From NCBI RefSeq assembly GCF_900106515.1, contig NZ_FNWF01000003.1, positions 682,001-746,000 on the forward strand: a stretch of DNA of 64,000 nt. The letters are read 5' to 3'. The notes beneath the pieces are model-generated. The model was not told the origin of the DNA. It did no database searches and saw only the letters and a list, made by a program, of their open reading frames with translations. The stretch is from Peptoniphilus lacydonensis. Lineage in GTDB: Bacteria; Bacillota; Clostridia; Tissierellales; Peptoniphilaceae. Position 1 is the first letter of the stretch. The number at the start of each line of letters is the position of its first letter. Both the position numbers and the translations under genes were made by a program. Below, in pieces: positions 2,282 through 24,009 of this stretch.

Positions 2282-2536
2282 TAAAAAAAGCCTCCGTCCA
2301 CAAAGGACGAAAGCAAATTCGTGTTACCACCTTAATTTTCCCTTACCTCACAATAAGAAACTCTTCAAGTACTATCATACTCTATTGCTATAACGGGCAC
2401 GCCCGCACTTATCTAAATATCGAAAAGTGCTCAAGAAAGACCATATTCGCCTATTTCTCTTCTACTTCTTTCACCAAACGAAGCTCTCTGTAATCATTAA
2501 AATAAGTTACTCTTCTTCCTGTTGAGTTTAAATTTT
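2282..2536 (-). promoter_or_regulatory. T-box riboswitch (likely Met-specific) of the metA-aspartokinase gene
   Basis: On the minus strand the leader carries the T-box AAGGTGGTAACACG (2320-2333), whose UGGU bulge suits a tRNA with discriminator A. A terminator hairpin at 2290-2315 is followed by a run of T (2283-2289). Stem I features are present: AGTA on the 5' side, a GGTGAAAG-like distal segment, and GAAT-ATG-G on the 3' side, so the specifier is probably AUG (Met) at 2442-2444. Uncharged tRNA-Met should favour antitermination and read-through. The specifier call was made by comparison with the tyrS leader in the same window, which has GAAT-TAC-A, and by the function of the gene. The T-box itself is near certain; the specifier is likely. 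Confidence 0.9.
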
Positions 2537-21329: not shown

Positions 21330-21677
21330 TTATAACTTCATCGCCAAGCTTATCTTTATAGCAGCATCCACCTCTTGCATAACTTCCTTGTCGAATTTAC
21401 CAATTTTCTCTCTCAACCTTTTTTTGTCGATGGTCCTTAGCTGTTCCAAAAGTATTACGGAATTTTTGGGAAGCGGAACATCTTTTGCTTTTACATTTAC
21501 ATGCGTAGGTAACTTCGCCTTATTTAATTGAGATGTAATTGCTGCAACAATAGTCGTTGGCGAATATTTATTTCCAATATCATTCTGGACAACTACCACA
21601 GGTCTTACTCCTCCCTGTTCAGACCCAATAACAGGTGACAGGTCGGCATAAAATATATCCCCTCTTTTTATCATCAT
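21330..21677 (-). CDS. MazF/PemK-type endoribonuclease toxin
   Basis: The 115-residue protein fits the NdoA/MazF family: [20 protein letters not shown] at the N-terminus, [18 protein letters not shown], and [12 protein letters not shown] near the C-terminal half. Such toxins cut mRNA at short sequences. The ATG at 21677 is chosen because AAGGTG lies six bases ahead; a GTG three codons earlier would place the codon in the ribosome site. No MazE-like gene is found directly upstream; the two preceding genes are small membrane proteins. In many Firmicutes mazF lies in the acpS/nnr/alr neighbourhood, and acpS-nnrD is close here. The IS copy B end lies about 20 bases beyond its stop. Confidence 0.92.
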
Positions 21678-21799
21678 AGTTTTCACCTTTTACGGTTGAA
21701 GAGAAAGATTAATTATAAGCCTCTACATCATTTTAACACAAATTTTGTAATATCCCTATAATATAAAATATTTTTTGTCCAATAAATGTATTATTAATT

Positions 21800-22620: not shown

Positions 22621-23808
22621 TTATTCTTCAATTAATTTGAAAACATTATCTAAATTGTCTATTAAGTCCCTTGCTCTTAAACTTGTTTTTGAATTTTTAT
22701 TTGCATAAATATCTCCTGAAAGTCCATGAATATAAACTCCAAGTTTTGACGCATCAAATAAATTATAATTTTTCATAAAAGCAGAAATTATCCCTGTCAA
22801 CACATCTCCTGATCCTGCTGTCGCCATGCCAGAGTTTCCCGTCTTATTTATATAAATTTCTTTGCTATTTGTCACAACTGTGTTGTGCCCCTTTAAGACT
22901 AAAATAACTTTATATTTTTTTGCAAATTCAACTGCAACTTTTTCTCTATTATTTTTTATCTCTTCTAAAGGTAGCCCAGTGAGCCTTCTAAATTCTCCTT
23001 CGTGTGGGGTTAAAATTGTTGTAAAATCTTTTCTTTTTCTCAATAATTCTAAATTTTTTGACAAAAGATTTAATCCATCTGCATCTATTAAAAGGTCTTT
23101 TTCTGTTTTTATTATTTTATAAAAAATAGACTTTGCATAATCTCCAAGACCCATGCCCGGTCCCATAGCTATTACATCAATTCCTTCTAAAAATTTCTCC
23201 ATGTCATCTAAATCATCAAAACTTTTGGCTATGGGTTCAATAAATTTTATAGAGATTATGTCAAATATTTCTTTTGGCACAATATTATACACAAGTCCTG
23301 CACCTGATTTTAATGATGCATTTGATGAAAGATAACTTGACCCAGTCATTCCAATTGAACCACCAACTATGGCAACTTTTCCAAAGTCGCCCTTGTGCGT
23401 GTCTTCATCTCTATTTTTCCAGATTGATTTTATTTCTTCATTCAAAATAATTTTCCCTATTTTTTCTTCTTTCGTAAAATTTTCTTCAATTAATTTTGCC
23501 ACTGCCACTGCATAATTTCTCTCGTGACTAATTGAGATTTCAAATTTATTATCAAAAACTTCTACATGAGGAACATCTTCTATGTATTTTATTCTTATGT
23601 CGTGAAAAGAAATTTGTCCAAGCCCTGTTGTCATTGCTTTCGCAACTGCTTCCTTTGCCGCAAACATACCTGCTGCTCTTTCATAAGGATGTTTCTTTTT
23701 TTGTATTCTTTTTATTTCATCTTCATTAAAAACTTTTTCTATAAAATTTTCGTGTTCATTCATTATTTTTTTTATTCTATTTACATCTACTATGTCTATG
23801 CCAATCAA
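22621..23808 (-). CDS. Fused holo-ACP synthase and NAD(P)H-hydrate dehydratase
   Basis: Residues 1-110 are AcpS, which moves 4'-phosphopantetheine from CoA to acyl carrier protein: GIDIVDV with metal-binding Asp5, and FAAKEAVAKA with Glu53. Residues about 115-395 are NnrD, the ADP/ATP-dependent dehydratase that repairs hydrated NAD(P)H: GKVAIVGGSIGMTGSS at 143-158, LTPHEGE near 266-272, and AGSGDVLTG at 331-339. The epimerase half (NnrE) usually found with NnrD is absent from this protein and from the window. Both domains look complete. ATG at 23808 follows GAGGTGATACATTG. Confidence 0.92.
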   Translation of the reverse strand: MIGIDIVDVNRIKKIMNEHENFIEKVFNEDEIKRIQKKKHPYERAAGMFAAKEAVAKAMTTGLGQISFHDIRIKYIEDVPHVEVFDNKFEISISHERNYAVAVAKLIEENFTKEEKIGKIILNEEIKSIWKNRDEDTHKGDFGKVAIVGGSIGMTGSSYLSSNASLKSGAGLVYNIVPKEIFDIISIKFIEPIAKSFDDLDDMEKFLEGIDVIAMGPGMGLGDYAKSIFYKIIKTEKDLLIDADGLNLLSKNLELLRKRKDFTTILTPHEGEFRRLTGLPLEEIKNNREKVAVEFAKKYKVILVLKGHNTVVTNSKEIYINKTGNSGMATAGSGDVLTGIISAFMKNYNLFDASKLGVYIHGLSGDIYANKNSKTSLRARDLIDNLDNVFKLIEE

Positions 23809-23821
23809 TGTATCACCTCAT

Positions 23822-23850
23822 TTGACAAATCTTTTATTTTCGATTATTAT
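23822..23850 (+). promoter_or_regulatory. SigA-type promoter of tyrS
   Basis: TTGACA (23822-23827) and TATTAT (23845-23850) with a 17-base spacer. Transcription should start near 23857, which leaves a leader of only about 150 nt. Confidence 0.85.
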
Positions 23851-23856
23851 ATCATA

Positions 23857-24002
23857 AACAGTAGAATATTTGATGTTGAAGATATACAGTAAGCGAAAGC
23901 TGAATTACAATATCGGAGTCTTTTTAATTTTGAGGCCTTGGCGAAGAAAGGTGGTACCACGAATGCGTCCTTTCATCGTGAGGTTCTTTTTATTTTTTTG
24001 GA
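23857..24002 (+). promoter_or_regulatory. T-box riboswitch of tyrS with an ultrashort Stem I
   Basis: The T-box AAAGGTGGTACCACG is at 23948-23962 and pairs with CCTTT at 23969-23973 in the antiterminator; the UGGU bulge suits tRNA-Tyr. A competing stem (CACGA at 23958-23962 with TCGTG at 23976-23980) precedes TTCTTTTTATTTTTTT. Stem I is very small: GATAT (23881-23885) pairs with ATATC (23910-23914), an internal loop holds ACAGTA on one side and GAATTACA on the other, and the stem is capped by AGC-GAAA-GCT (23892-23901). The specifier is TAC (Tyr) at 23906-23908. The distal AG-bulge and apical loop of normal Stem I are missing. Confidence 0.9.
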
Positions 24003-24009
24003 GGAATTT

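Follow-up and report, generated by a model that had tools for sequence, protein, structure and literature searches.

A tyrS leader of Peptoniphilus as a probable transcriptional T-box with a miniature Stem I and an extension-type terminator

Transcriptional T-boxes are described in a 2020 review (PMC7583486) as generally requiring a long Stem I with an elbow-binding motif, and a paper of 2023 (PMC10482949) describes the binding of tRNA as being reinforced by the elbow motif, by Stem II, or by both. Class II T-boxes do without Stem II, which the review ascribes to strong GGC:GCC pairing; in the same account, the terminator of transcriptional T-boxes has a 5′ strand made up of the 3′ strands of the antiterminator helices A1 and A2 (PMC7583486). 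Class I hits whose Stem I is truncated are mentioned in the text on the T-box database TBDB (PMC7778990). A search of titles and abstracts, with the main older surveys and the TBDB supplements outside its scope, found none on a transcriptional T-box lacking both the elbow motif and Stem II, nor on the terminator layout described below; the priority of this layout is uncertain. Below, we describe the leader of tyrS in a 64-kb stretch of a Peptoniphilus genome (the window). This leader is likely to be a minimal transcriptional T-box riboswitch that responds to tRNA-Tyr and has a terminator switch of an extension type.

The tyrS gene and the divergent acpS-nnrD gene are separated by a gap of 201 nt, which holds a promoter and the leader (Table 1). 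TyrS has 26 relatives at 57-96% identity (best segment); identity is 84-96% for 11 of the 13 loci titled Peptoniphilus, with P. duerdenii at 74% and P. obesi at 70%. The GGAGG at 24000-24004 is presumably the ribosome-binding site. Near acpS-nnrD there is also a MazF-like open reading frame (21330-21686, minus strand; NCBIfam E 2.9e-10, under the curated cut-off). An initial annotation of this DNA had proposed a leader of about 150 nt starting from a near-perfect promoter, and both the 153-nt length and the match to consensus bear this out. A near-consensus promoter lies 49-53 nt 5′ of the sequence GAATTAC in 14/14 genomes of the genus, so that a long Stem I has no room. The annotation had named, as the case that would tell against it, a normal Stem I transcribed from an upstream start inside acpS-nnrD. 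A full-length Stem I of this origin is barely conceivable and we reject it, since the conserved promoter lies directly upstream of the leader, the bases that partner the specifier loop and K-turn on the 5′ side are already present 15-31 nt before the specifier, and no elbow motif pair is found upstream.

Table 1. Features of the tyrS leader and its surroundings, in positions of the window.
Feature	Position	Strand	Basis or remark
acpS-nnrD gene	22621-23808	minus	both domains recognised; divergent from tyrS
Promoter TTGACA-17-TATTAT	23822-23850	+	11/12 consensus positions
tyrS leader	23857-24009	+	start (~23857) inferred from promoter
Miniature Stem I	23872-23920	+	Rfam alignment, relatives
Stem I outer 3-bp helix GAU/GUC	23872-23874/23918-23920	+	3/3 pairs change on both sides (11-row alignment)
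K-turn GUUGAA/GGA	23875-23880/23915-23917	+	placed by Rfam alignment
Stem I proximal 5-bp helix GAUAU/AUAUC (DNA GATAT/ATATC)	23881-23885/23910-23914	+	3/5 pairs change on both sides
Specifier loop ACAGUA / GAAUUACA, loop-E type AGUA/GAA	23886-23909	+	sequence, Rfam alignment
Cap hairpin AGC-GAAA-GCU in place of distal Stem I	23892-23901	+	covariation, 40 distinct variants
Specifier codon UAC (Tyr)	23906-23908	+	complements GUA anticodon of both tRNA-Tyr gene copies found
U/A-rich linker (11 nt) in place of Stem II and IIA/B	23921-23931	+	40 Stem II-region model positions missing
Putative terminator extension helix, 5′ strand, overlapping Stem III	23932-23944	+	duplex energy, strand-swap test
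Tentative tiny Stem III GC-CUUG-GC	23935-23942	+	90.9% of cells paired, no pair changing on both sides
Antiterminator GAAAGG-UGGUACC-ACG-AAUG-CGU-CCUUUC	23946-23974	+	Rfam alignment; 100% of cells paired, mostly invariant
Antiterminator helices A1 GAAAGG/CCUUUC and A2 ACG/CGU	within 23946-23974	+	Rfam alignment
T-box bulge UGGUACC	23952-23958	+	UGGU complements ACCA of tRNA-Tyr
Putative terminator extension helix, 3′ strand	23976-23988	+	duplex energy, strand-swap test
U-rich terminator tract	23984-23999	+	sequence; U-tracts also in relatives shown
Presumed ribosome-binding site GGAGG	24000-24004	+	sequence
tyrS, tyrosine--tRNA ligase, 408 aa	24010-25236	+	NCBIfam TIGR00234, 399 bits vs cut-off 113.8

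The T-box model of Rfam (RF00230) aligns end to end with positions 23867-23975 at 29.9 bits (E 4.2e-5; the gathering score is 93), and a scan of the whole 64-kb window at gathering scores listed no Rfam entry. In this alignment, 4 nt stand in for 55 positions of the distal Stem I, and 2 nt for 40 positions in the Stem II region. The apical part of Stem I amounts to 24 nt, in which, at the DNA level, ACAGTA (23886-23891) stands opposite GAATTACA (23902-23909). Two identical genes for tRNA-Tyr (GUA), 86 nt in length, were found by pattern in the same genome. The anticodon and the 3′ end of this tRNA (...CUCCUCC-A-CCA) match both the UAC codon and the UGGU of the bulge. The annotation had claimed that a Firmicute possesses a T-box for tRNA-Tyr whose Stem I is ultrashort and lacks the elbow platform, and this is upheld by the Rfam match, by the UAC:GUA complementarity and by the lack of the elbow motif pair in all 82 tyrS-linked leaders of the family (see below). 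Its anatomy of Stem I was right about the 5-bp base, the specifier loop with UAC and the 3-bp stem capped by GAAA; the K-turn and the outer 3-bp helix had been missed.

Evidence that the miniature Stem I is maintained by selection comes from its relatives. A Stem I parser read 85 of 86 leaders (L095 failed to parse). The frame AGTA...GAA[AT] occurs in 53 of the 86, and the enclosed cap is 16 nt or shorter in 47 of those 53, in 40 distinct forms. Cap pairs 1, 2 and 3 are standard in 32/40, 40/40 and 36/37 distinct variants, against shuffle means of 23.1, 23.4 and 16.1; all eight non-standard cases at pair 1 are A.C. These cap counts are free of the bias that affects the counts for the proximal helix, where the parser picked helices by pairing. 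Poor conservation of the small stem, which would have spoken against the initial annotation, is not what is seen: the cap hairpin is conserved and covaries over the 40 variants. In an alignment of 11 sequences, 97.2% of cells pair, compared with 89.4% in shuffles and 36-42% in slid controls, although the slid comparison is weighted towards the named structure. Both partners have changed in 11 of 23 pairs, and such double changes occur in all three Stem I helices. A chance resemblance to a T-box is ruled out by this alignment together with the covariation in the cap hairpin. The bases of a K-turn could not be recognised by eye in the compact tyrS leaders L101, L105, L106, L108-L110, L112-L114 and L119, and T-boxes without a K-turn may thus exist here.

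Plain energy folding, which the annotation had suggested as a check, gives no support and failed as a proof of the element: the whole leader has a z of -0.58, and 60 of 200 shuffles fold as well. The segment's minimum-energy fold contains the proximal helix in 6/14 genus members but not in the window itself, where a rival 10-bp pairing wins (-9.4 kcal/mol) that is strong in 2/14 genus members. The folding program leaves the K-turn and loop-E pairs unmodelled. The poor folding, along with the extreme reduction of the leader, could be taken to mean that this is a decayed T-box, unresponsive to tRNA, which attenuates tyrS at a fixed level. We think this very unlikely; cap pairing, proximal helices and terminator have been kept with compensatory change across many genera, and decay would not produce such change.

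What is missing from the leader is as distinctive as what is retained. The pattern AGAGA...GGTGNNA, taken to represent the elbow motif pair, was found in none of the 82 tyrS-linked leaders of the family, in 9/10 other T-boxes of the same genome and in 4/6 long tyrS leaders of outgroups; three long control leaders without the strict pair carry near variants (by eye). A single pattern was applied to all sets, and its counts are identical to those of a previous run in which the spacing was narrower in the family than in the controls. The AGAGA and UGxRA loops named in the review agree loosely with it (PMC7583486). The sole long leader among the 82 (L126) is also without elbow motifs. The annotation's list of reductions was correct in that the elbow platform is gone; it left unstated the absence of Stem II and of IIA/B, which is the sharper anomaly. 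A rough scan found no H-type pseudoknot in 13/14 genus leaders, and the lone case (L054) reaches into Stem I. Convincing H-type pseudoknots do lie directly after the K-turn in some other genera, as in AAGT-ACTGT-ACTT-ACAGT of L052. This pseudoknot looks like IIA/B retained after the loss of Stem II; IIA/B would then have been lost as well in Peptoniphilus, in genus g2 and elsewhere.

The ten other T-box matches in the same genome are longer (164-242 nt) and score higher (89-119 bits), which makes the tyrS leader the odd one out. The window contains a second T-box, of full size (2300-2531, minus strand; 90.2 bits, just below the Rfam cut-off), with an elbow motif and a canonical terminator, which precedes a metA-like homoserine acyltransferase gene. 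Elsewhere in the genome, two T-boxes (L004 and L005) stand back to back before divergent genes, at G000:C1:170264-170461 (-) and 170632-170829 (+). The downstream open reading frames are presumably argininosuccinate synthase-like and transporter-like, and this divergent pair recurs, by coordinates, in at least G001, G004, G011 and G012.

The annotation had described a full antiterminator followed by a T-rich terminator. Both elements are present (Table 1), although the terminator probably differs from the ordinary type, which forms in competition with the antiterminator; judged by computed pairing, it extends the antiterminator hairpin through the Stem III region. In the window, the predicted extension pairs GAGG.CUU.GCGA with UCGU.AGG.UCUU and runs on into A1, with an energy of -18.7 kcal/mol (z -1.80). 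Alternatively, the same compact T-box might have an ordinary terminator, in which ACCACGA on the A2 side pairs with UCGUG downstream in a helix that excludes the antiterminator. This is mechanically simpler, and the two strands can indeed pair in the window (CCACGAaUG/CAUCGUG, -6.8 kcal/mol); the canonical duplex reaches -10.2 in L043 and L045. However, the extension duplex with 23975-23989 reaches -10.6 kcal/mol in the window, and the extension is the stronger pairing in 80 of 82 leaders, L060 and L064 favouring the canonical one. The sample took in 80 of the 82 tyrS-linked leaders from the family, L114 and L126 having been excluded for faulty parsing, and two from Ezakiella, L034 and L035, whose Stem I is poorly resolved by the parser and which nevertheless have a terminator of the extension type. 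Outside this test were the long outgroups L023, L026, L027, L029 and L036, as well as L031 (a duplicate of L072), while the T-boxes of the same genome formed a separate control; in an earlier pairing comparison, L032, own_L004 and own_L005 were unparsed and L023, L027 and own_L003 misparsed.

Compensatory change gives a further means of telling the two pairings apart. When 3′ strands were swapped among 50 non-redundant leaders, the extension had a native mean of -10.96 kcal/mol against -7.08 for swapped strands, a cost of 3.9, with a z of -12.2; 0 of 10,000 permutations were as good, a count that is not a strict probability because the leaders share ancestry. The native strand ranks first in 4/50 leaders only (median rank 6.5). 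In the same 50 leaders, no coupling was detected for the canonical pairing (z +0.7). T-boxes of the genus used as controls behave in the opposite manner: the canonical terminator is preferred in 24 of the 24 that could be parsed out of 30 given (L139, L140, L143, L155, L157 and L005 had no core match), with a near tie in L004 (-6.6 vs -6.0), and in 17 non-redundant controls the coupling z is -7.1 for the canonical pairing and +1.0 for the extension. An ordinary terminator in the tyrS leaders is thus distinctly unlikely, the extension being the more stable and the one that covaries. With the 3′ strand included, the hairpin becomes more stable in 82/82 leaders, by a median of 10.6 kcal/mol. Any Stem III whose loop has two bases lies outside the energy scoring, and an automatic terminator scan with a loop limit of 8 called no terminator. 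Control at the level of translation, with the ribosome-binding site sequestered, might also be proposed: by eye, CCUUU could pair with GGAGG, and the ultrashort T-boxes of actinobacteria are mostly translational (PMC10482949). Against this, in the window a stable hairpin runs up to a long U-tract that precedes the ribosome-binding site, and U-tracts are present in the relatives shown too; translational control is not favoured and we regard it as highly improbable.

The annotation's suggestion to search related genomes for the compact leader was followed with a covariance model built from 11 compact leaders, the window and other genus members being among the training sequences and L031 left out as misplaced in the MAFFT alignment. 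At E 0.01, matches occur in 86 of 130 family genomes, in 31/39 genera and in 14/14 genomes of the genus; the leader is therefore not a lone case. The gene next downstream is tyrS for 82 of the 92 matches, in 82 genomes. By eye, six of the ten others show motifs of a long Stem I in the excerpt, the excerpts of L124, L127 and L128 start too late to reveal any, and L089 is a Tyr-type leader of intermediate form upstream of another gene. At E 0.001, the model matches 78/130 family genomes and 4/119 other genomes of the order. By eye, L135 of these is long, L136 is intermediate, and L133 and L134 (family f18) combine a small capped Stem I with an ordinary terminator, so that the reduction of Stem I and the change of terminator are separable. 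In a sample of the phylum, 4/398 match; two are from this family, and in the other two no such Stem I was seen within 150 nt before the T-box.

By a classification made partly by eye, the 82 tyrS-linked leaders comprise 45 with a small cap, 15 of intermediate form, 19 with the codon in a hairpin loop, two in which the codon sits in a side bulge and loop E is lacking, and one long leader. In L033/L088 and L082, the codon lies in a side bulge without loop E and adjoins a neat H-type pseudoknot, which a rough pseudoknot scan gives as AGGT-GGTTGA-GCCT-TCAACC for L082. UAC is displayed in a plain hairpin loop, together with terminators and without a long Stem II, in L074-L081, L084, L090-L093, L095, L097, L099, L100, L102 and L103. 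On a tree of TyrS, which is one gene for which transfers are possible, three changes are required to account for the hairpin-loop type, and the g2 group lies inside a small-capped clade (100/92). The nesting of g2 and the three changes suggest that the leader has shrunk more than once to a form like Class III, though one that is followed by a terminator.

How such an RNA might work can be proposed from its anatomy, which fits a sensor that would read the codon and acceptor end only. During transcription, the UAC of the miniature specifier hairpin would pair with the GUA anticodon, and the K-turn would bend the short Stem I so that the acceptor end of the tRNA could reach the antiterminator across the linker without Stem II. 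If the tRNA were uncharged, its ACCA would pair with the UGGU of the bulge, and the very small Stem III, together with its flanking purines, would lock onto the antiterminator, allowing transcription into tyrS. A precedent is the latching of Stem III purines onto the antiterminator once the tRNA end is bound, as described in PMC7583486. With charged or absent tRNA, the Stem III region would instead pair with the sequence just 3′ of the antiterminator, lengthening the antiterminator hairpin up to the U-tract, where RNA polymerase would terminate. As the predicted terminator encloses A1 and does not consume it, the element to be undone would be Stem III with its purines rather than the antiterminator; we thus propose that uncharged tRNA blocks termination by holding Stem III. 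The extension helix alone does not exclude the antiterminator, and how charging would flip the switch is therefore a guess.

In translational T-boxes, a truncated Stem I is reported to bind tRNA hardly at all when Stem II is missing (PMC7583486), so binding here may be weak and an extra partner is possible. Stem I might be insufficient alone, with the contacts of the elbow motif and Stem II replaced by a K-turn-binding protein (L7Ae family, of the YbxF/YlxQ type) or by another contact, for instance through docking of its GNRA cap or through the long variable arm of the tRNA. The K-turn is retained, L7Ae-family-type proteins are named as K-turn partners in the review (PMC7583486), a tRNA-Tyr of 86 nt has room for a long variable arm, and a GNRA cap loop (GAAA, GCAA or GGAA) is found in 12/14 genomes of the genus and, outside it, in G086, G099, G122 and G123. 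Many leaders outside the genus, however, have other cap loops such as UUAU, UUUUU and UAAA. Taken together, a protein partner and these other contacts form an unlikely but credible alternative to a Stem I that suffices by itself.

The tyrS leader appears to be without both the elbow motif and Stem II, yet compensatory change points to selection. The minimal needs of RNA-only sensing of tRNA can be put to a direct test with an RNA of about 140 nt, for which the leaders of the family offer a natural reduction series for comparison, and the compact size suits structural work. The extension terminator suggests a different coupling of tRNA binding to termination. By the features tested, the leader is a T-box, with a UAC specifier before tyrS, a matching tRNA-Tyr (GUA) and a UGGU bulge facing ACCA; it falls outside the full definition of all four classes as they are set out in PMC10482949. 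With the elbow platform of Stem I, Stem II and the pseudoknot all gone, none of the four fits. The canonical platform, with a terminator 5′ strand formed from the 3′ strands of A1 and A2, is likewise absent as far as computation indicates. A fifth T-box class is conceivable, transcriptional, contacting the anticodon and acceptor end only, switching by hairpin extension, and reduced stepwise within the family, about three times to a plain codon loop; we put this forward tentatively, as a proposal that falls a little short of probable.

The nearest relative by gene is Class I, represented by B. subtilis tyrS, which shares the K-turn, the specifier in an internal loop and the antiterminator. Class I differs, as described in PMC10482949, in its long Stem I with the double T-loop elbow motif and in its Stem II domain with an S-turn, in place of which there is an 11-nt linker here. 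Like Class II (B. subtilis glyQS), the leader is predicted to be transcriptional and has a single-stranded linker instead of Stem II, a K-turn and a standard antiterminator. The glyQS type is, however, glycine-specific and has a long Stem I with the elbow motif (PMC10482949), whereas the specificity here is for tyrosine and the motif is lacking; the GGC:GCC pairing that accounts for Class II does not apply to UAC:GUA. Class III (Nocardia farcinica ileS) also has a short Stem I without the elbow motif, but its specifier is displayed in an apical loop of five or six nucleotides, and Stem II is required (PMC10482949); in the present leader, the specifier lies in a side bulge under a capped helix and Stem II is absent. 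Relatives such as L074-L081, L092 and L097 share the apical-loop specifier of Class III, but have terminators and lack a long Stem II. Closest in the layout of Stem I is Class IV (Actinomyces odontolyticus ileS), with no elbow motif and a side-bulge specifier between two helices; Class IV resembles Class III in requiring Stem II and is mostly translational (PMC10482949), in contrast to the tyrS leader, which has a putative terminator and no Stem II.
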